Source of the DNA: Coemansia sp. RSA 922 | Taxonomy: Eukaryota > Kickxellomycota > Kickxellomycetes > Kickxellales > Kickxellaceae | Reading direction: 5' to 3' | NCBI GenBank assembly: GCA_027577415.1 | Contig: JANBQS010000504.1 | Location: 1-16,471, forward strand | DNA: 16,471 nt | Shown here: in pieces, positions 3,292 through 16,103 of the stretch | Layout: every line of letters starts with the position of its first letter | Numbering within the stretch: the stretch's first letter is position 1 | Made by a program: the position numbers and the translations under genes | Notes under the pieces: model-generated | Seen by the model: only the letters and a program-made list of their open reading frames with translations | What the model was told of the DNA's origin: nothing | Databases searched by the model: none

Positions 3292-3657
3292 TTAGCTACC
3301 GCGATAAGTGGTGTATGAGAAGGGTGCCAGGTTAAGTGGGATGTGGTAGTGAGCCGCTGGCTGGTCGATCTCGAATGCGACATCGACGAAGGGGTAAAAG
3401 CTCTTCTCTCCGTGTAGGGCAAAGTAGGTCTTGGTATCAAAGCGCACAGTATACACGCCCGGAGCGAGAACATGGGTGGGCTCAAGCAGGGATGGGCAGC
3501 GGCCATCCTCATTAGTGACGCCACGAGCTATCACTGAGCTCTGTCCGGCAGACGCCGCAGTGGAGGTTGGTGCGTAGCTGATAGAGATAGGCACGCCGCG
3601 GGCAGGCAAGCCGCGGGCAGCATCGAGAACGTGCGAGGTGATAGGGCTAACTCCCAT
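3292..3657 (-). CDS. 5-hydroxyisourate hydrolase (transthyretin-like)
   Basis: Single-exon 121-residue protein, the usual length of this family. It hydrolyses 5-hydroxyisourate (from urate oxidase) to OHCU in urate breakdown, as a homotetramer. Hallmarks seen: N-terminal TSHVLDAARGLPA with the active-site His at residue 9, EDGRCPSLL with Arg53, HYHIPLNLAPFSYTTY with His105, and the diagnostic C-terminal YRGS (118-121). That tetrapeptide separates true HIU hydrolases from transthyretin. I see no obvious C-terminal PTS1 or N-terminal PTS2 peroxisomal signal. Start chosen at the ATG at 3657 because the conserved first strand begins right after it. The gene is divergent from the Borealin-like gene and shares its upstream interval; an AATAAA follows the stop. 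Confidence 0.95.
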   Translation of the reverse strand: MGVSPITSHVLDAARGLPARGVPISISYAPTSTAASAGQSSVIARGVTNEDGRCPSLLEPTHVLAPGVYTVRFDTKTYFALHGEKSFYPFVDVAFEIDQPAAHYHIPLNLAPFSYTTYRGS

Positions 3658-4001: not shown

Positions 4002-4433
4002 ATGAATTCGTCGTTACCAGACACAAATCGCGACACTCCGCAGGACGGATGTCTAAGCCCTGGTGCCTTGTCCAGTAGGACAGTTAGGTCAGTCAACAGA
4101 GAAGCACACATACAACTGGCCCACGAGCAGCGCACTGCGATGCTAGAGAACTTTGACATGGAAGTAGAGGACAAGATTCGCTTAATGCGCGCTCAACTCG
4201 ATGCAGACAAAATGGACTTGATTCTCAAGGCAGACTGCGACGTAGCGCAGCTCCCAAAGTGCGTGCGCGATATGCCATTAGCGACGTTTTTGCGCGAGTA
4301 TGGTGGTGACGTGTCTGCCGCCGTACGTGGTGTACTGAAGATCGACGACAAGGGCAGAGAGACCATGGTGCCATTGCCGGAAACGCCGCTTGTCATCCGT
4401 GCTCGACGCAAAGTTGTAGCAAAGACCACATAG
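4002..4433 (+). CDS. Borealin/Nbl1-like chromosomal passenger complex subunit
   Basis: 143-residue protein. Residues about 38-100 match the Borealin N-terminal pattern: a long amphipathic helix (LENFDMEVEDKIRLMRAQLD) followed by a short segment where Leu-Pro and 'lR.M....FL' recur (QLPKCVRDMPLATFLREYGG). In the family this helix forms a three-helix bundle with Survivin (Bir1) and INCENP (Sli15) and targets Aurora B to centromeres and the spindle midzone. The first ~30 residues are Ser/Thr/Pro/Arg-rich, plausible for kinase sites. The C-terminal ~40 residues are basic (IRARRKVVAKTT). The protein is longer than yeast Nbl1 (about 73 residues, from memory) and shorter than animal Borealin. Identity is by pattern recognition; no search was run. 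It converges on the CSN7-like gene downstream. Confidence 0.72.
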   Translation: MNSSLPDTNRDTPQDGCLSPGALSSRTVRSVNREAHIQLAHEQRTAMLENFDMEVEDKIRLMRAQLDADKMDLILKADCDVAQLPKCVRDMPLATFLREYGGDVSAAVRGVLKIDDKGRETMVPLPETPLVIRARRKVVAKTT

Positions 4434-4574: not shown

Positions 4575-5526
4575 CTAAAATTCGCCTGCACCAGTTCTTC
4601 TCTCTTCGTTTTGGTACTCGGAGCTGGCATACTGAGAATCGTAGCGCGCTAGACTTTCGGGCTCACCGCCTGCCGAGGCGTGTGCCATGTGCAGGTCTTG
4701 CAAGGCAAATGTGAACTCGCGCTCCTTTGCACGCTTAGACACCAATTTCTGCTCGGCGTCATTCACGCCAGCCGTTAGCATGTCGAGCTCCTTCTCACAG
4801 ACCGCTGACCACTTATCCAGCGATTCATAGATGGCCTGGAGGTCTCCCCGACGCACGTCGCGTCCTACAACAAACTCAACCTCAACCAATCGGCGCTGCT
4901 GATCGAGCTTAGCCGACAACAGACCCTTGTAAATGGTGTCAATGACCAGGTCCTCCATCTGCTGCTCGTGTGCGCAGTCAAGCTCGCGGATCAGGTCGTC
5001 ATATGGCAGGACCTTTGAGACTGAGGCAAGGCTCACCAAGGACAAATGCTTCAGTTTCTCTAGCTGCCGCTCCGTTAGTTCTGGTAGCTGCGCAGAGACG
5101 GCTACAACTTGCAAAAAAGAACCAAAAAGAGTGAAATACACAGCCTATTAGTTTCATTCCAATAAGGCGGGTCGGTGATAGACATGCAGTCTTTGTAGCG
5201 GCAATTGCGACTCACCTTTATAATCGCTGAGAGTGCCAAAGGAAAACAGCTCCAGCAGGTTCCAATACGCATTGGGCTGTTCCGACGCTGCGAGCTACAC
5301 TTGTACAACCAAGAAGTGATGTTGTTAGAATACCAATTAGGAATGCTGCGCACAAAAAAATTGGCAGTTACATTGACATTAGCCAAGGACGTACCTCACG
5401 AGCCTTGGGCGAATCCAGCACCCGGCCAAAGTGGTAAATGCCCTCGCTTTCGAGCAGCTGCTGAATGACTTGAATAACCTCCGACTCTGTCGTTGCCGTG
5501 TGTAGTGCGCTCAAGTATGTATCCAT
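4575..5526 (-). CDS. COP9 signalosome subunit 7 (PCI domain), three exons
   Basis: Exon 1 5526-5395 (44 codons), exon 2 5294-5216 (79 nt), exon 3 5101-4575; 245 residues. The joined protein has the CSN7 pattern: EGIYHFGRVLDSPKARE (about 28-44), then NAYWNLLELFSFGTLSDYK, then a PCI/winged-helix region (LPELTERQLEKLKHLSLVSL; LPYDDLIRELDC; MEDLVIDTIYKGLLSAKLDQ). It ends in a C-terminal helix where EKELDMLTAGVNDAEQKLV looks coiled-coil-forming. CSN7 is a scaffold subunit of the COP9 signalosome, which removes Nedd8/Rub1 from cullin-RING ligases. Splicing restores conserved sequence across both junctions, which is strong support for the model. The start ATG at 5526 is the first in frame, ~157 bp after the stop of the F-box-like gene on the same strand. 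Confidence 0.9.
5102..5215 (-). other. Intron 2 of the CSN7 gene
   Basis: 114 nt, phase 1, donor GTGAGT (from 5215) and acceptor TTGTAG (ending 5102). It joins LSDYK to AVSAQLPEL by completing a GCC codon across the junction. Confidence 0.87.
5295..5394 (-). other. Intron 1 of the CSN7 gene
   Basis: 100 nt, phase 0, donor GTACGT (from 5394) and acceptor GTGTAG (ending 5295). It joins SPKARE to LAASEQPNAYWN, continuous in CSN7-type sequences. Confidence 0.87.
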
Positions 5527-5683: not shown

Positions 5684-7429
5684 CTAGTTCGCTACCGTTG
5701 CCCTTTTGGCTTGTACCGTTTTGACATTGGGGATATTATTGCTCCACCCTCCAAATAGCAAGCGCCGCAGCCGAGTCGCATGTTGTCTGTAGCCGTTTGA
5801 GGCAATCATCTCCTTCATGTGCGCCATGAACAACTCGCGAGAGTTGGCCGGAACGGCCACGTAGTCGAAATTTGGGCATATCAAGGCCAACAACAACGCC
5901 CACTTGACCGCGATTTTAACATCAAAGTCGGAGTCGGAATTAATGCGCCAGCAACGAAACCACTTGCCCATGTGTGGGTATTTTGCTATTACGTATGCGG
6001 GGAGGTTGTGTTTGGCAATGCTTCTGGGCAACGGATCAAACTGTAGGATTTTGGAGCTTAGATATGAGAGAAGTGGGAGAACTTTGACCAGCGCGATGAC
6101 GTCCAAAATATGCATACGCGTATGTGTCAGTTCAAGTGCCTGAATGCGCTTATGTTCGCCGAGTGTCGTCGTTATCGGCCCGAGTCTTGGATGGGACATC
6201 AGCGTAGTGAACTGTCGAACTGGTGCGTTTGGACCAATAGTTAACCCAAACTTCATGTATTCGAACTCCGAAGCGGATCTGGGCTCTGGTAGGTCATAGT
6301 TCCACCCCAGATTGACAGATTGGAGTCTCGGATGACTCGTAGGCGTAAAGACAATGTTATCCCTAAGCACAGTAATCGTGTTTAAGGTCAGATACATGTT
6401 CAGCCACTCGAGTGTGGCAGCATTGCCCCGGAAAGGCGTGTCATCGCCAATAGGACTCGCTAGTACGAGGCTCAGATACCGAAGACGGGGGAAGGGCAAT
6501 GCGCCAGGAAATGTTGGCCCCATTGACGAGTCCGTACACTGCCCGGTTCCAAGAATCAGCTTGTACAGGCAGGGGTACTGCACATAGCTACCGTCGGCGT
6601 TTTGAATGAGACCAGCGATATTCTCGTTTCTCTGCAAATAAATGCTCAGGTATTGCAATGTCGGCGCGTTGTGCCGTGCCAAATGCACCATCGACTCAAA
6701 CTCGAATCCATTGACGTCCATGTATACCAGGCGACGAATAGTAATCAAAGATGAGTCCAAGCATATCGGTCTACTAAGGTAGATAAACTCCATATCGCAT
6801 ATGGACTGGCAGATCTGCGAGGCTAGACTGTTGAATTGCTGGCTCGGGAGACGTGTTTCGATGGAAATGTTGCGCGTCGACTTTATGTAAATCTTTTGTA
6901 CCATAGGCGCTATCTGTTTAATATGACGTACAAACGCGCGGATATTTGCCCCAATATCTTGCGGAGCAGTCACATCGTCTGCGAAATGCTCCGATTTACG
7001 AGTAAAGTCAAACTTGAAACACAGCAAACGAGCCTTTGGAAACGTATAGTCGACGTAGGGCTTACGCAACAACGCCTTGAGTGCGAGTCCATTGTAGATA
7101 TGATCCTCGCCTAATTCGATAAAAAGAATTTTGGCATATAGGTGCGTAGGAAAGTTACTGCGGATGAGACAACCCAACCACGTAGATCCCACTACCCAGA
7201 CTTTGGCTGACACTTTATCAATGGCCAAAGTGTGTGTCCGACAACAGTGCGAGATAGCGACTGCACGAAAGCAATGACAGACACTCAATAGTGGCAACAG
7301 TAGGCCCACATGTCCTTTGGAGCCTTCAATGACGCCATCAAACTGTAGACGGCTGCTACCTACGACATGGCCTACAATGGATTCAATAATATGAAGTGGG
7401 AGTATCTGGATAAGTGGAACACGATGCAT
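5684..7429 (-). CDS. F-box-like / leucine-rich lineage-specific protein, paralogue 1
   Basis: 581 residues in one exon. The frame is open to 7483, but the first in-frame ATG is at 7429 (AAAATGCAT context), and the paralogue at 9885-11645 starts at the matching place. The N-terminus (QILPLHIIESIVGHVVGSSR) has the 'LP..ii..Iv..v' look of an F-box helix, followed by 'LLPLLSVCHCFR', as in F-box proteins. The rest is irregular leucine-rich sequence with recurring 'YPCLYKLIL', 'PFPRLRYLSL' and 'HPRLQSVNL' units, consistent with degenerate LRRs. The C-terminus (MAHMKEMIAS, RLRRLLFGGW) is shared with the paralogue. A substrate-receptor role in an SCF-type ubiquitin ligase is possible but unproven. 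I recall proteins of this pattern as abundant in Coemansia. No transmembrane segment or signal peptide seen. Confidence 0.75.
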   Translation of the reverse strand: MHRVPLIQILPLHIIESIVGHVVGSSRLQFDGVIEGSKGHVGLLLPLLSVCHCFRAVAISHCCRTHTLAIDKVSAKVWVVGSTWLGCLIRSNFPTHLYAKILFIELGEDHIYNGLALKALLRKPYVDYTFPKARLLCFKFDFTRKSEHFADDVTAPQDIGANIRAFVRHIKQIAPMVQKIYIKSTRNISIETRLPSQQFNSLASQICQSICDMEFIYLSRPICLDSSLITIRRLVYMDVNGFEFESMVHLARHNAPTLQYLSIYLQRNENIAGLIQNADGSYVQYPCLYKLILGTGQCTDSSMGPTFPGALPFPRLRYLSLVLASPIGDDTPFRGNAATLEWLNMYLTLNTITVLRDNIVFTPTSHPRLQSVNLGWNYDLPEPRSASEFEYMKFGLTIGPNAPVRQFTTLMSHPRLGPITTTLGEHKRIQALELTHTRMHILDVIALVKVLPLLSYLSSKILQFDPLPRSIAKHNLPAYVIAKYPHMGKWFRCWRINSDSDFDVKIAVKWALLLALICPNFDYVAVPANSRELFMAHMKEMIASNGYRQHATRLRRLLFGGWSNNIPNVKTVQAKRATVAN

Positions 7430-7858
7430 TTTGAGGGGGTGACAGCAAGTAAGTAATGAAGCAGATACAAATGAGTGAGACAATTAATTAAAAATGCAAC
7501 AATTCAACGAGCGCCGTACAAGTAAAATATGCATGTACAGAAATACAATTATGGACTTTGAAAGCCGGTGTCTTCCGATGGGTGGTTCCGGAAAGTTCGA
7601 ATTAAGAGTGCAGGTCGCTGCGCCACTGGCCGCAGCCACTACTTCAACACATCACTCTATGTTCCCAGCGCTTACGTGTACAGCAATCGAGTGTATAAAA
7701 GGCATGATCTGGCCATGGCTCTCTCTTTCGTTGCACCACCATCGGTTTATAACAAAAAGTTTCATATCATTCATTTCTCTTTGCCTTTATATCTGCACTC
7801 AAGTGAAATATTTACACCCTTGCATCAACCCTCTACACAGGAGTAAGAATTCGACACC
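7430..7858. promoter_or_regulatory. Divergent promoter region, F-box-like gene 1 / recombinase-domain gene
   Basis: 429 bp between two divergent starts. A clear TATA box, TATAAAA at 7694-7700 on plus, is ~160 bp before the ATG at 7859. The segment 7740-7850 is pyrimidine-rich, as expected for an untranslated leader. The ATG itself sits in a good context (CACCATG). Small open frames here (from 7494 and 7568) have no family signal. No clear TATA box is seen for the minus-strand gene. Confidence 0.5.
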
Positions 7859-9884: not shown

Positions 9885-11645
9885 CTACCAGCTCCAACCT
9901 TCGACCAATGCTTCACTCTCCGCTGCCTGAATCGTTTTAACGCTGCGGATTTCGTTTCTCCATCCGCCAAATAACAAGCGTCGCAACCGAACTGCATATG
10001 GTCTAAATCCGTCAGTAGTAATCATCTCTTTCATATGCGCCATGAATAGCTCGCAATCCATTTCAACCACTGCAGCGTAGTCAAAATTAGGGCAAACCAA
10101 CGCCAACAAAAGCACACAACGTACAGCGTTCTTGATATCATCGAGAGTGCGGATTAACAAGTGCCAGCAACGAAAACGCTTTCCTGTCAGAGCATAGTTT
10201 GTAATTACGTAGGCAGGCAACGCGTGTTTGGCGACTCTGTTGGGCCGTGTACCAAGAGCAGAAAACGAGGAGTGTAGATCTGACAGCAGAGGGAGTGCCC
10301 TGACCAATGCAATGACATCCCAGAGGTTCAAGTGCAATGCTCCTAGATGTAGGACTTGGATGCAGGTATACTCACCCAACATCAAGTGTACGGATCGAAG
10401 CCCGGATCTAATAAGTGGGCCAAATAAGAAGCGCACTGGAGCATTAGTACCAATGCTCAGTACAAACCTCAAGTAATCGGCATCTGATTCAAAGAGTCTT
10501 GGTTCAGATTCCACATCCAGTTGTACTTTGACACACTGAAGTCTTGGGTGACTGACTGGTGTAAAAACCTTGTACTCTCGAAGGACCCTAACTGTCGCAG
10601 GAATCGGTACAAGGACAAGAGATTCCAGTATGGCCGCATTGCCCCTAAACACCGTATCGTCGCCAAAAGGGTACATATATCCAATATTCAGTCGCCGGAG
10701 ATTTGGAAATGGGACTGCACCAGGAAACACTGGCTGCCGCAACTCGTCTAATCCTTGTGGACCAGCTAACTTGAACGCATGTAGGCAAGGGTACTGTACA
10801 TAGCTGCCGTCGACGTTTTGGATGAGACCAGTTATGTCTATAATCGCATCAACATCGATATCCAGAAGCTGCAGTGTCGAGGCATTACGTCGGGCCAGCT
10901 CCATTATCTGCTCGCCACCGTCATTAAAGTCTATGGTCGTATATACCAGTTTGCACAGTCCACTTTGTCTCTGATCAATAATAACCGGCTGATAATAGAA
11001 CTCGTAGTCAATATTCGTCGCACATCGGCTGAGCTGTGCAACCAGGTTATCGAGCCTCTGGGCAGGGAGCTGGCGTTGATTAAAGCCATGGGATAACGTC
11101 GTAATGCGAATTTCCTTCGTCATGGGTGTCAGCAGCCTAATCCGCCGCACAAACGCACTAATGTTGGACTCGATAGCAACTGAAGCAGTCATATTGTCCG
11201 TTAGCTGCTCTTCCGCTGACGGCATAGAAAACGTGAACTTGATCGAGCGAACCTTTGGAAAGGTGCAATTGACATAGGGCTCGCATGACAGTTCCTTCAA
11301 CGCGTTTCCACTGTAGATATCAGGCACATTCACGCTAATGGTCAGATCTTTGACGTATAGATGGGCAGGAAGACCGGTGTCTTTAACATACGTCTGCAGC
11401 CAATACGGCCTCGTCTGGTATTCACCCGAAATGGAAAGTCGCATCTTGTATATCCCGAAAAGACGCGTAAGCGTAGGTGACCAAAAACTGGTGCAAGTAT
11501 CCAATAGCGGCATTAGCAGCCCCGCATATTCCTCGGAGCCTTTGGAGACATTGTCGAACTCTAGGCGGCTGCTACCTGCGACGTAGTCCACTATTAGCTC
11601 GATAATGTGGAGCGGGAGGATCTTAAAAGGAGACAAGAGATGCAT
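9885..11645 (-). CDS. F-box-like / leucine-rich lineage-specific protein, paralogue 2
   Basis: 586 residues, one exon; the first in-frame ATG is at 11645 (the frame is open two codons further). It is collinear with paralogue 1 over its whole length. The N-terminal helix is KILPLHIIELIVDYVAGSSR; 'LYVKDLTI', 'YVNCTFPKVRSIKF', 'DGSYVQYPCLHAFKL', 'FPGAVPFPNLRRLNI', 'GDDTVFRGNAAILESL', 'ALVCPNFDYAAV' and 'RLRRLLFGGW' all have counterparts there. Divergence is high enough that the duplication is not recent. The F-box-like start and irregular leucine-rich repeats suggest a protein-interaction adaptor, perhaps in ubiquitination, but function is unknown. It follows eIF5B on the same strand, ~233 bp away; a TATATA core at about 11780 may be its TATA box. 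Confidence 0.75.
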   Translation of the reverse strand: MHLLSPFKILPLHIIELIVDYVAGSSRLEFDNVSKGSEEYAGLLMPLLDTCTSFWSPTLTRLFGIYKMRLSISGEYQTRPYWLQTYVKDTGLPAHLYVKDLTISVNVPDIYSGNALKELSCEPYVNCTFPKVRSIKFTFSMPSAEEQLTDNMTASVAIESNISAFVRRIRLLTPMTKEIRITTLSHGFNQRQLPAQRLDNLVAQLSRCATNIDYEFYYQPVIIDQRQSGLCKLVYTTIDFNDGGEQIMELARRNASTLQLLDIDVDAIIDITGLIQNVDGSYVQYPCLHAFKLAGPQGLDELRQPVFPGAVPFPNLRRLNIGYMYPFGDDTVFRGNAAILESLVLVPIPATVRVLREYKVFTPVSHPRLQCVKVQLDVESEPRLFESDADYLRFVLSIGTNAPVRFLFGPLIRSGLRSVHLMLGEYTCIQVLHLGALHLNLWDVIALVRALPLLSDLHSSFSALGTRPNRVAKHALPAYVITNYALTGKRFRCWHLLIRTLDDIKNAVRCVLLLALVCPNFDYAAVVEMDCELFMAHMKEMITTDGFRPYAVRLRRLLFGGWRNEIRSVKTIQAAESEALVEGWSW

Positions 11646-11878
11646 TATCAAAAATAAAGCTAAATAGACGACTAAGGTTAGTCAAACCCCCTCCCCAGAA
11701 AAGTCTCGATGATATTGAAGTCGTTGTATTGGAGCCCTGTATGGGCACGATCTTAAGAAGAAGAAAAAAAACACCCTATATAAAAATGGTGACATGCTCA
11801 CATGCCCAGAGGGGTAGTAAATAGATGTGGCATATTTAAGCGCACATGTAACTGAAAAAAAAAGTTGTGGTCTGGAGC
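11646..11878. promoter_or_regulatory. Spacer: eIF5B 3' flank and promoter of F-box-like gene 2
   Basis: 233 bp. It contains TATATA (about 11779-11784, palindromic) 135 bp before the F-box-like gene 2 start, a purine run around 11755-11770, and one copy of the GGAGCCC element (11716-11745) related to the two copies at 5626-5685. The T-rich run just after the eIF5B stop (minus, 11864-11855) may help 3' end formation. Confidence 0.4.
11716..11745. repeat. Third copy of the GGAGCCC dispersed element
   Basis: The first 23 nt (11716-11738) match 5663-5685 at 20 of 23 positions by eye. The last 19 nt (11727-11745, TATTGGAGCCCTGTATGGG) match 5626-5644 at 17 of 19. All copies have the same orientation and lie next to the two F-box-like genes: after the stop of one, upstream of the start of the other. 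Confidence 0.4.
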
Positions 11879-14800
11879 CTAGTCGACGCCAAGTGTGTTC
11901 TTGAGCTTGACAACGAGCTTCCATTCTTCCATAGTCAAATCATCACGGAAGTGCTCCTTGAGGACGTCAATGCTGTCACGAGTAATTTGTGAGTAGAGCA
12001 GATCCTCCTCGTCAAAGTGGCGACCAAACTTCTTGTCGTGGCCTGGCACTATACTCTCAATGCGGATAGTGAAACCGGCACCGGCTTTGCCTTTACGGAC
12101 AATATCAACTGGCTTGTCGTTAACCTTGATGCTGGTTACCTTGCCCAACGTGATAGGTCTGTGGACATGGGTCACAAGGTTTGTCTTCATTACACAGATA
12201 GGAGTTCCCAGGCGCAAGTGACCTTCCTCAATGTCCACACCAAGTAGGAGACCAGAGCGCGTATTGAAGACGTGTTCCTCGCTGATTATCTTCATGATAC
12301 AAGGGTAGATCGTCCGGTCTGCCAGTTCCTTGCGCTTCTGCTCCGCGATCCGAGCGTTGTGCGCCATGTAGTTGTCAACCAAGTGATAGATAATGTCCGC
12401 CGTGTACACCAAGAGGCCAAGCTCCTTGGCCATTCTCTCGGCATCCTTGTCAAATTTAACGTCAAAGCAAAGCATAACGGCGTACTCCTTGGCACGCTCC
12501 AGCATGACCGATGCGCGGGTAACGTCCTTCTTGTGAACGGGTCCAATGTTGATGCCCGACACAGGGATCTTGGACACACGCAATAATTCCAACAGGGCTT
12601 CAAGGGATCCCAGAGTAGAAGCCTGCACCCACACGCCGCGTCCAGACTTGTCAATGGCATCATCCAGCCAAGCCAGATCAGACATGAATTCGTCCATCAG
12701 CTCCTCCTCATCGTCGTCGGGACCAATTACCATCAGGCGCGAGCCTGCAATGGCCTTCTCCAGACCAGGGGCATAGATCTTCACGCCCATAGCGGCCTTG
12801 ATCGACTTGTGGTGGACATAGGCAGACTTGACGCGCAGCTCGCGCATGGGCTGAGGAGTAAGCAGAGCGCGCACGTTGGTGACAATAGGACCGTCCATGC
12901 CACAGATGATAATCCGGTCACCCACGTGAAGCATTCCATTCGACATAATGACGTCGATCGTCGTACCCAGACCCTCAATAACCTTGACTTCGAGCACAGT
13001 GCACTCCAGCTCGGAGAAATACATGAGCTGCTTAGACATGCGCTGCTGTGTAAGCGTGACCAACAAATCAAGCATGTCAGGAATGCCCTCGCCCGAAAAG
13101 GCCGAGGTGGGCACCAGCGACACGTACTTGGCAAAGTTCTTGTTCTTGTAGTGCAGCTCGGCGTTCAGGCCCTGCTCGGCAAACTCGACTTTGACTTGGG
13201 CGACTCGGTCCTCAAACAGGCTGACAGTACGATCTGGCTGATTCTTGAAAGTGTCGCGGAATGGGCTGTTGGGATGCTTGTTCCAACCATATATGCAATC
13301 AATCTTGTTGAGAGCAACGATAAAGGGCGTCTTGCGCTCGCGCAACAGACGCAGCGACTCGAGGGTCTGAGGCTCAAGGCCGTGCATAATATCGACAACA
13401 AGAATGGCGATGTTACACATCGACGAGCCACGCGAGCGAAGGTTGGTGAACGACTCGTGCCCAGGCGTGTCGATAATCAACAAGCCAGGAATCTTGATGT
13501 CAATCTTGCTCGACGGATACATGGCAGCCGTCTTCTTCTCGATAGCATCGGCGGGGAAGTAAGTGGCACCAATCTGCTGCGTAATACCTCCAGCCTCTCC
13601 GCCTTGGACGTCAGTCTGGCGAATCTTGTCAAGAAGTTTGGTGTTGTGCGAGACAGTGTAGTCGCCGAGCAATACGCGCGAGTTGCCATCAAGCGTGAAG
13701 CCAAAGTACTCTCCGTGACCGATCTCCTCAATGGCAAATACCCAAGAGTTGCTGCAAAGCGCTGCCCACGATTCCGGCGCGCGCTCAGCAGGACGCTTGT
13801 GCTCGAGACCAATGAGCGGGGCAAAGGTGCACATTGCCTCACCAGAGATGGATATCGTGCTACCAGCAGCCGATTGAGAAACAGGGCCGACATGGAACCC
13901 AATGGAGCGAGCAAGACGACGTAGCTGAAGCAAGAACTGCTCGTCCGAGCTGGACACGTCCCAGTGCTCGTCAGCAGCGGAGGCAGCCACAAAGGTGGTG
14001 CTGTCGCTTTCAATGCCACCCGCAAGGAACTCCCTTCTGTGGTTCAATGAGGCGGACATGATAGCGTCGGGGATTCTCTTCTCGTCTGTCAAGGCGAACT
14101 CTTTAAGGAGAGCCTTACGAGTGTCCTCAACGTCGGCACTGGGGATACCATTGGCACCACTGCCAAGCCAGACGCCAAAGAACCTAGCCGTCTCCAGCTC
14201 TTGGATGGACGTGGGGACAGATCCAAAGGCCCGGGTGATAGCGTCAGTGAAGGGCCGACTGGCGCTGGCAGAGAACTCGACGCCATTCACGGGCTTGTAC
14301 ATCGAGTACATATCGGCAGAAGCGCGGTCGGTGCGAACCAAGTCCAAGTACTCCAGAACCGTGCACTGCCACGTCAGCGGCTGCCACTCTGGCAGTGCAG
14401 CCAGTGCTAGCTCCTCAGACTCAAATTCGCCGTGGACTATTTGGATCGGCTTGTCGATAGCAGAGTCCATCGCTAGCGATTTTGCAATGTACTTGATTTC
14501 AGTGACACCATCGACAGTGTGGATGGTGCGCTGAACGCAGAGCTTGTAGTTAATAGTCAGCACCAGGACGTGCTCACCGTTGCACACAAAGGAGTCAGCA
14601 CCATCGCGCTGGTCAGGCACAACGCGGTACAGCATTCCTTCTCCCTTGATCACCGACCCAGGCTGCACAACGCGAGGCGAGTTGTCGTCGCCCATCACTT
14701 GGTCTAGCTCAACAATGTCTTGCACATTGCGAGTGGAGCCGTCCCACATCAGGATAGGCGTGTCGCGGCCCCAGCACTTGCCAGTGTCGACGTGACCCAA

Positions 14801-16103
14801 GATACAGCAAATAGGCGAGCGCAGGTTGTCGACAGAGCGAGCAGCCATGGCATTCTGGATACGCTTCTCACGACGTGCAGTTGCAGCCGCCTTGCGTGCA
14901 AGTGCCTGCCTCTGCGTAGCGGTCAACTCTTCATCAGAGCTGCTCTCGTCCGAGTCATACTCTTCCGAGTCCACATCGTCTCTGGCATCAGCAAGGGCTT
15001 CCCAGTCGTCGACTTCGTCATCGTCCGACGTGGCTTCTTCTTCCTCAGCGGCCCTCAGCTTGGCCTCCTCTTCCTCGACAGCCCTCAGCTTGGCCTCTTC
15101 TTCCTTTAGGCGCTTCTTCTCGGCCTCCACTTCGCAGCGTCTCTTCTCGGCCTCCTCTTTGCGACGCCTTTTCTCGGCGGCCCACTTCTGGCGCTCCTCG
15201 GCGTCGCGTTGGAACATGTCTTGGCGACTGAGCTTGCTCTCGCCTGAAAGACCAGCAACCTGCACGCCCGAGGCCAGAATCGTCTTGAGCTGCTGCTCCC
15301 GCCGCGCATTAGCCTCCTTCTGCTTCTTGGTCAGTAGCTTGCCATCGCGCTTCAGCTGCTCCTTGCGCAGGCGATCAGCCTCGCGCTTGGCTTCGCGCTC
15401 GGCGGTCTGGATGGCCTCCTCTTCGGCGGCGAGACGCTCCTCCTCCTCGACACGCTTGAGCTCCTCCTCTTCCAGGCGCCTCAACTCTTCTTCCAGGCGG
15501 CGCTGCTCCTCAACCATCTTTTGCAGAGCAGCAATAGTTGTGCCCTTCTGGACCTTCTTCTTCTTTTCGCCATTGGCAGTGGCAGGAACAGGCGAGACAG
15601 CTTCAGCAGCGGGGGCAGCATCGACCTGGTCGGCAACCTTGACAGACTCATTATCCTTGCCAGTGACGTCCTCGTCCTTACCGGCACCTTTCTTGACAAC
15701 GGCAATCGTCATCGTGTCGAACAACGCCTCTAGCTCGCTAGCCTCAGCTTCCCGCTTGGCCTTGACATCGTCAGCTTTCTGCTTCTTTTGGAGCTTGGCC
15801 CTTTCTCTTCTTTCGCGCTCTTTCTGCTTTGCCGTTCTAAGTGTGCTGTTGGGCGCGTCCCCCCAAGTCTCCCCCCGTTGCCGCAGTATCGTCAGCGATA
15901 GGTAAAAGGGATTTGGCCCTTTTATTGGCCTTGTTCTTCTTTCTCGCGCGCGAGATCATGCTCATGAGGCCGCCGCCCTCGTCATCCTCTGTGGGGCTAG
16001 TCTGAGCTTCAATGTTAGCGGCAGATGTGTAATCCAATAGATCGTCGTCGGCCCAAATAGCATCTTTGGCGCGTCCCTTCTTGTTTGCCTGTTTATTCAC
16101 CAT
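11879..16103 (-). CDS. Translation initiation factor eIF5B, intein-containing, with a +1 frame break
   Basis: eIF5B (yeast Fun12, bacterial IF2 homologue) is the GTPase that joins ribosomal subunits at the end of initiation. N-terminus: [20 protein letters not shown] from the ATG at 16103, then a charged, coiled-coil-like Lys/Glu/Arg tail with the family segment [10 protein letters not shown]...VAGL. The GTPase has GHVDTGK|T (G1, interrupted by the intein), [13 protein letters not shown] (switch I), DTPGH (G3), NKID (G4) and SAFSGEG (G5). Domains II-IV follow, ending [16 protein letters not shown], like other eIF5Bs. The frame from 16103 stops at 15837; the rest is in the +1 frame and needs one base skipped between 15955 and 15839. 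With that, the precursor is 1,407 residues and the spliced protein 1,029, close to yeast (about 1,000). No introns seen. Confidence 0.95.
13643..14776 (-). mobile_element. Intein in the eIF5B P-loop, with a degenerate LAGLIDADG endonuclease
   Basis: 378 codons in frame with the host gene. Block A: Cys1 and [14 protein letters not shown]; 'VMGDDNSPR' follows at residues 28-35. Block [10 protein letters not shown] with His69, in the CNxxH form of nuclear (PRP8-type) inteins. Block [21 protein letters not shown] then TVSHN with His377-Asn378; the next host residue is Thr, a competent +1 nucleophile. Protein splicing should therefore work and rejoin GHVDTGK to TKLLDK. The middle holds two LAGLIDADG-like motifs: FFGVWLGSG (Ser206 where the catalytic Asp is expected) and FLAGGIESD (Asp258 kept). 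They are only 52 residues apart, so the endonuclease is probably shrunken and inactive. Inteins are rare in eukaryotic nuclear genes; I recall one in eIF5B of the chytrid Batrachochytrium. Confidence 0.95.
15839..15955 (-). other. +1 frame break in eIF5B (window of overlap)
   Basis: Frame 0 (from 16103) is open to the TAG at 15839-15837; the main frame is open from 15955 downward. Two runs of six G (minus) at 15876-15871 and 15864-15859 lie inside the overlap. Losing one G from either restores one continuous frame. On the coding strand no GT occurs between 16098 and 15839, so no GT-AG intron can fix it. The simplest reading is a one-base indel in a homopolymer (sequencing or real). Confidence 0.8.

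Follow-up and report, generated by a model that had tools for sequence, protein, structure and literature searches.

A putative intein in the GTP-binding loop of eIF5B from Coemansia sp. RSA 922, its paralogous copies and its relatives

Inteins in the fungal translation factor IF2/eIF5B have been listed before, with 3 entries from Chytridiomycota and Glomeromycota in Table 1 of Green 2018 (PMC5784728), and those portions of the intein literature available to us, including PMC8778642, report no eIF5B intein in Coemansia or Zoopagomycota. Here we analyze an intein in the eIF5B gene of the fungus Coemansia sp. RSA 922, located on a 16,471-nucleotide stretch of contig JANBQS010000504.1 (the whole of which we call the window). 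The listed inteins share with this one the host protein and a fungal nuclear gene, a likeness drawn from the table entry alone; unlike what is set out for them, the Coemansia element occupies two paralogous loci and carries an endonuclease without one conserved Asp. What is new relative to the known fungal eIF5B intein is its presence in every gene copy found, its homogenization, and its setting in an intein-rich genome.

Other described systems resemble it in part. PI-SceI, the yeast VMA1 intein, resides in another host at another site and has GDG and DSDG motifs within 454 residues, compared with GSG and ESDS within 378 residues in the eIF5B intein. Prp8 inteins likewise differ in host protein and site, and the solved ones that were matched are mini-inteins; in a structure model, the Hint core of the eIF5B intein is predicted to superpose on 6mx6 at 1.4 A over 141 residues. 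Archaeal aIF2 inteins occupy the same P-loop site of a homologous protein but show little sequence likeness to the eIF5B intein.

An insert between the P-loop Lys and Thr

The insert comprises 378 in-frame codons on the minus strand (Table 1), starting with Cys-Trp-Gly, ending with GDYTVSHN, and flanked by GHVDTGK before and TKLLDKIR after, so that its junction is the P-loop Lys-Thr bond of eIF5B. A preliminary description of this DNA had given the same limits and terminal residues (Cys1, a His-Asn end and a +1 Thr), all of which we recovered exactly, on the minus strand. Excising the 378 codons restores the conserved protein exactly, and Cys1, a block B His, the His-Asn end and Thr +1 are the terminal residues expected of an intein. 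The search with intein profiles that had been proposed as a check returned Pfam Hom_end_hint (PF05203) at E 6.3e-16 over residues 317-693 of the open reading frame (ORF), while phmmer matched the intein to PI-SceI (3e-7) and Prp8 inteins (5e-6); this Pfam match, together with a structure model compared with 1jva, 1vde and 6mx6, points to a Hint fold. None of the three genomic copies of the gene has a stop in the insertion frame, compared with 10-12 and 19-20 stops in the remaining two frames. Collectively, these findings confirm, as far as sequence can, that an intein interrupts eIF5B precisely at the P-loop Lys-Thr junction.

The identity of the host is supported by Pfam matches in the eIF5B ORF to GTP_EFTU (5e-30), IF-2 (4e-15) and GTP_EFTU_D2 (3e-7). 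The C-extein (host sequence downstream of the intein) scores 788 bits over 586 residues against yeast eIF5B chain 3wbi, 785 bits against 4n3g, likewise of fungal type, and 635 bits against 7tql, the best of another group. We take the 3wbi/4n3g group to be fungi and the 7tql group to be animals, and this score order appears to fit a fungal host.

Could the insert instead be a spliceosomal intron or an assembly artifact? The assembly is a draft (20.4 Mb in 960 contigs) and the frame of the window copy is broken upstream, both of which would suit such an explanation. However, the insert recurs on three contigs, C504 (the window), C385 and C953, of which C504 and C385 are collinear across the whole window (95.4% over 16,498 columns), and GC content at third codon positions is closely similar between intein and C-extein (0.67/0.67 in C504, 0.66/0.66 in C385, 0.68/0.71 in C953). 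Removal as an RNA intron also fails at the level of splice signals, with exact removal leaving TG...AC ends and no GT-AG, GC-AG or AT-AC removal within 45 nucleotides (nt) of either end restoring the protein. We regard an intron or artifact as scarcely credible.

By analogy with its family, Cys1 would attack the Lys(-1) bond, the N-extein would then be transferred to Thr+1, Asn378 would cyclize with the help of His377, and the exteins would be ligated to regenerate GHVDTGKT. Because the P-loop Lys and Thr are separated by 378 residues until splicing occurs, the precursor should be GTPase-dead. The preliminary description had likewise proposed that unspliced eIF5B is inactive, and the insertion site supports this as an expectation, with abnormal GTP-Mg binding predicted. 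Its mass estimates also agree with those computed from the intact C385 copy (156.4 kDa for the precursor, 115.2 kDa for the spliced protein). Precedents for such interference are found in M. smegmatis DnaBi1, where one P-loop residue serves as both Mg ligand and splicing residue (PMC6195587, consulted in part), and in the RadA P-loop intein, cited in the same source as disrupting ATPase function. That splicing of eIF5B may act as a gate on translation is plausible.

Table 1 Features of the eIF5B locus in the window
Feature	Position	Strand	Remark
eIF5B gene: N-terminal low-complexity region, interrupted P-loop, GTPase core, domains II-IV	11879..16103	minus	
C-extein, 587 residues	11882..13642	minus	match to yeast eIF5B
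+1 Thr = P-loop Thr, predicted splicing nucleophile	13640..13642	minus	
Intein, 378 residues, Cys1 to Asn378	13643..14776	minus	
C-terminal splicing blocks, including F	13643..13720	minus	H377 and N378 invariant in alignments A1, A2, A3
Degenerate second endonuclease block	14000..14029	minus	Glu256 and Ser259, with D258 retained
Degenerate endonuclease block C, GVWLGSG	14156..14176	minus	Ser at column 206, a position with Asp in 90% or more of A3 rows
Splicing block with N66, H69	14558..14590	minus	N66 and H69 invariant in A1, A2, A3
N-terminal splicing block	14738..14776	minus	C1 and G13 invariant in A1, A2, A3
Last N-extein codons GHVDTGK (first part of P-loop)	14777..14797	minus	

Gene copies, homogenization and endonuclease decay

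An IF-2 domain search of the assembly gave 4 matches, namely the three eIF5B genes, 3/3 of which carry the intein, and a bacterial-type IF2 on C631 that lacks an intein and that we read as mitochondrial. The collinear copies C504 and C385 are consistent with two haplotypes or with a large duplication of very recent date, and C953 is a paralog that has diverged and retains partial collinearity. An empty GKTKLLDK site had no match in the assembly, which may be incomplete, when searched as an exact degenerate pattern with zero mismatches; a contig scan with the C-extein alone as query found 13 stretches, none of them related.

We calculated synonymous (dS) and nonsynonymous (dN) divergence from Nei-Gojobori counts. 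In the C-extein, dS is 0.084 for C504/C385, 0.336 for C504/C953 and 0.340 for C385/C953, compared with 0.084, 0.085 and 0.092, respectively, in the intein. Synonymous changes in intein vs. C-extein differ significantly by Fisher tests for both paralog comparisons (p = 1.7e-10 for C504/C953, p = 5e-10 for C385/C953) and not for C504/C385 (p = 1.0). No site private to C953 occurs between 72 nt ahead of the insertion and 130 nt within it; such sites are sparse across the intein and dense again ~200 to 300 nt into the C-extein. For comparison, dS between the PRP8 copies on C261 and C263 is 0.03-0.13 for exteins and 0.06-0.11 for inteins. Because paralog dS is ~0.09 in the intein and ~0.34 in the C-extein, the intein block appears to have been homogenized between the two eIF5B paralogs. 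The alternatives previously put forward for the history of the element, old inheritance or horizontal spread, are thus incomplete, as this exchange between paralogs adds to it.

The endonuclease shows decay shared by all copies, with GSG and ESDS motifs identical in the three. Compared with the columns of A3, the second block reads Glu for Asp256 and Ser for Gly259 with Asp258 retained, so that the two conserved acidic residues (blocks C and E) of an active LAGLIDADG homing endonuclease are not both present; we take columns 206 and 258 to be equivalent to the PI-SceI catalytic pair. Relative to the seven viral inteins of A2, ~30-50 residues are missing from the segment that separates blocks C and E, and the Pfam Hom_end match falls below the cut-off in the window copy (0.023) and above it in the other two (6e-5 and 2e-5). 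Since the conserved Asp is lost in all three copies, we infer that the endonuclease does little or no cutting. As these damaged motifs are common to all three copies, the simplest account of the homogenization would be ordinary gene conversion, or a nuclease that was dead before the last exchange.

The best explanation overall, which we hold to be very probable from these comparisons, is an intein of class 1 type that splices in cis, belongs to the Hom_end_hint family (with the VMA1/PI-SceI and Prp8 types), and is long-resident, non-homing, and refreshed between paralogs. Under this explanation, a parasite no longer able to home by itself would have been kept since excision from the invariant P-loop must be exact, with gene conversion spreading or refreshing it between the eIF5B paralogs.

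Several observations weigh against this explanation. Other patches are similar between the paralogs too (e.g., +1860 to +2130 in C504/C953), and conversion is apparently patchy and not confined to the intein, whose block is the longest trough, not the sole one. In the low-complexity part of the window copy, a G run (plus-strand C run 15859-15864) differs in length by one base and breaks the N-terminal frame, which remains open there in C385 and C953; the natural eIF5B start lies at 16103, and the listed 1,281-residue ORF begins downstream of the interruption. This difference is a sequencing error or a young lesion. The window copy also has 19 private nonsynonymous intein codons, compared with 9 in C385 and 4 in C953, and the window allele could be decaying or mis-sequenced. 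A C-extein dN/dS of 0.107 against C385 speaks against old decay into a pseudogene.

Across copies, intein dN/dS ranges from 0.19 to 0.46, compared with that C-extein value of 0.107 between the two haplotype-like copies, indicating that the intein is under purifying selection yet held less tightly than its host protein. This bears on a rival account, in which the intein is a domesticated switch whose conditional splicing (in response to redox state, metal or stress) sets the level of active eIF5B and hence translation start. The split nucleotide-binding loop would suit such a switch, as would five cysteines common to the three copies (1, 65, 138, 316 and 341), and a P-loop DnaB intein sensitive to reactive oxygen provides a precedent (PMC6805012 and PMC6195587, each consulted in part). 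However, we found no sequence feature separating a conditional from an ordinary intein, and the weaker constraint on the intein speaks against the switch, although it is compatible with one all the same. We consider a domesticated switch unlikely.

Inteins at P-loop sites in archaea and viruses

Next, we compared the eIF5B inteins with inteins of their own genome, PDB, viral contigs, phages, plasmids and prokaryotes, with scores across groups taken from one program (phmmer). A DNA pattern for a terminal HN followed by TTLLD(K/R)I identified 33 prokaryote loci (L037-L069), 31 of which are aIF2 with an intein ending at the same Lys-Thr site (15 assigned by a strict downstream motif, 16 by reading near-identical downstream sequence); the other two (L040 and L066) are chance matches. 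As the pattern selects an HN ending by design, these counts are uninformative on frequency. GH[VI]D(x)GK directly precedes the intein in 28 aIF2 loci, and intein lengths range from 146 to 570 residues.

This shared position would favor descent from archaeal aIF2 inteins, the P-loop site having been occupied since the archaeal ancestor of eIF5B. However, the eIF5B inteins reach at most 11.8 bits against archaeal aIF2 inteins, compared with up to 41.4 bits against own-genome inteins and 110.6 bits against viral inteins, and a profile of aIF2 inteins scores YME1 (60 bits), PRP8 site 1 (52) and RPB2 (38) above eIF5B (19-21). With own-genome inteins as the control, sequence therefore does not unite the eIF5B and aIF2 inteins in one lineage, and we judge archaeal descent highly improbable. 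Because the two share a site with low similarity, at least two intein lineages have apparently invaded this bond.

The closest relatives by score come from viral contigs, with best values of 110.6 bits (L207) and 98.9 bits (L079). Like the eIF5B intein, these viral and phage inteins (e.g., L207, L079, L071) mostly lie between a P-loop Lys and Thr or Ser; they differ in their hosts (helicase, AAA and other ATPases), and the seven viral inteins of A2 have the Asp at 258 and keep GDG, which is GSG in the eIF5B intein. In a first viral scan, the closest own-genome intein was that of eIF5B for 36 of 38 inteins longer than 300 residues (VMA1 for 2), and insertion after GK and before T or S was seen in 26 of the 42 with both ends located. 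A second scan gave eIF5B as closest for 75 of 76 inteins (PRP8-3 for 1), with 55 sites between GK and T/S, 8 with another residue before the K-T/S junction, 9 before an SGK-type triplet, and 4 others. Because the queries of the first scan included eIF5B inteins and those of the second were built from P-loop inteins, a third scan used VMA1, PRP8-3 and PRP8-5 queries only. Among 50 domains with the N end located, 9 had eIF5B as their closest own-genome intein and all 9 of these lie at P-loop-type sites, compared with 4 of the remaining 41. Several of these nine had, however, entered the earlier two sets under different ids, and for many of the 41 no C end was located, which may be Hint domains other than inteins.

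An annotated phage collection gave 354 matching records, mostly helicases among the 30 matches listed. A viral contig scan with the intein alone as query found 1 stretch, not a relative, and a control viral scan with PRP8-1, RPB2 and YME1 inteins found 52 stretches, none related, and hence gave no base rate of P-loop insertion for that family. The plasmid scan returned one record, which led nowhere.

Phylogenies gave differing placements. The first tree unites the 38 viral inteins in a starred clade (97) and leaves eIF5B outside it, among the other fungal inteins; two later trees group eIF5B with viral sequences to the exclusion of VMA1 and PRP8, at unstarred support values of 90 and 88. The approximately unbiased (AU) test rejects none of the alternatives (eIF5B+VMA1 p = 0.51, eIF5B+PRP8-3 p = 0.46, eIF5B+PRP8-5 p = 0.45). 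Kinship to viral inteins thus appears clear by similarity, and the trees do not settle origin: a straight viral origin is favored by similarity but not shown by trees, in which long branches and degenerate sequence make placement unsafe. More tentatively, we can envisage a mobile lineage specialized on P-loop K-T/S junctions (DNA GGNAARACN) of proteins with no other relationship, mostly viral ATPases, one member of which crossed into a fungal nuclear gene at the P-loop of a translation GTPase, where nuclease decay was followed by gene-conversion refresh between paralogs and all functional eIF5B is now splicing-dependent; this scenario may hold, but we consider it doubtful.

An intein-rich genome

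Searches with family models and single inteins identified inteins at 11 or more sites distributed over six genes, namely eIF5B, PRP8 (six), VMA1, RPB2, a YME1-like protease and a mitochondrial-type EF-Tu, the count of 11 being a lower bound. Hosts were named from their exteins by PDB matches (PRP8, V-ATPase subunit A, RPB2 with S. pombe as top match, YME1) or by Pfam (EF-Tu). The view in the preliminary description that inteins in fungal nuclei are confined to few genes does not fit this genome. The PRP8 inteins are found on both copies, C261 (L022, L023) and C263 (L020, L021), with the sixth truncated by the contig end on C263; they measure 443, 402, 468, 563, 464 and 409 residues, in an open frame of 5,154 residues that would give 2,384 after splicing. 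Several inteins per genome have been exemplified by F. fujikuroi with three (Green 2018) and seven Prp8 sites are known across species (Green 2019); in the parts of the intein literature accessible to us we found no earlier report of six inteins in a single gene, which leaves its absence unproven.

The VMA1 intein (432 residues) lies on C82 (L019) and the RPB2 intein (462 residues) on C2 (L026); within its own genome, the latter matches itself and, weakly, one PRP8 intein. Spiromyces is a kickxellalean genus. RPB2 inteins were reported in 2006 in the zygomycete Spiromyces aspiralis (PMC1635734, seen in part). On C933 (L035:1270-2310, minus strand), a Ser1 intein of 347 residues interrupts the YME1-like AAA protease, with GVGA before Ser1 and the terminal HN followed by SKMRSLF. 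A distinct intein-like family occupies PRP8 sites 2 and 6 (C261/C263) and the mitochondrial-type EF-Tu (C76, L208); its members start CFPEDHQ... or CLSEDS... and end in Gly-Asn, not His-Asn. The EF-Tu member has 297 residues and lies between HVD and CPGHAD, and the PRP8-2 member gave no intein match in Pfam. LAGLIDADG_3 matches at C13:12660-13103 and 42238-42438 are perhaps, as a guess, intron-encoded endonucleases of a mitochondrial contig.

Elsewhere in the window, minus-strand ORFs at 5684-7483 and 9885-11651 form a similar pair with relatives beside eIF5B on C385 and C953, and neither had a Pfam match at E 0.1. Further ORFs at 945-2315, 3292-3657, 4002-4433 and 4575-5141 correspond to a sugar transporter (also with a sub-threshold plexin (PSI) repeat), HIUase/transthyretin, the Borealin N-terminal domain and a PCI domain.

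A universal translation GTPase whose GTP-binding loop would be made only via protein splicing offers a clean setting in which to ask whether translation can be gated by inteins, and the eIF5B paralog pair presents intein homogenization between nuclear genes over a tract that can be measured. The dissimilar inteins at the same IF2/eIF5B Lys-Thr bond in archaea and in Coemansia argue for a P-loop hot spot that has been invaded repeatedly, and a genome with at least 11 intein sites, six of them in one gene, would provide a rich natural set for understanding why inteins accumulate.
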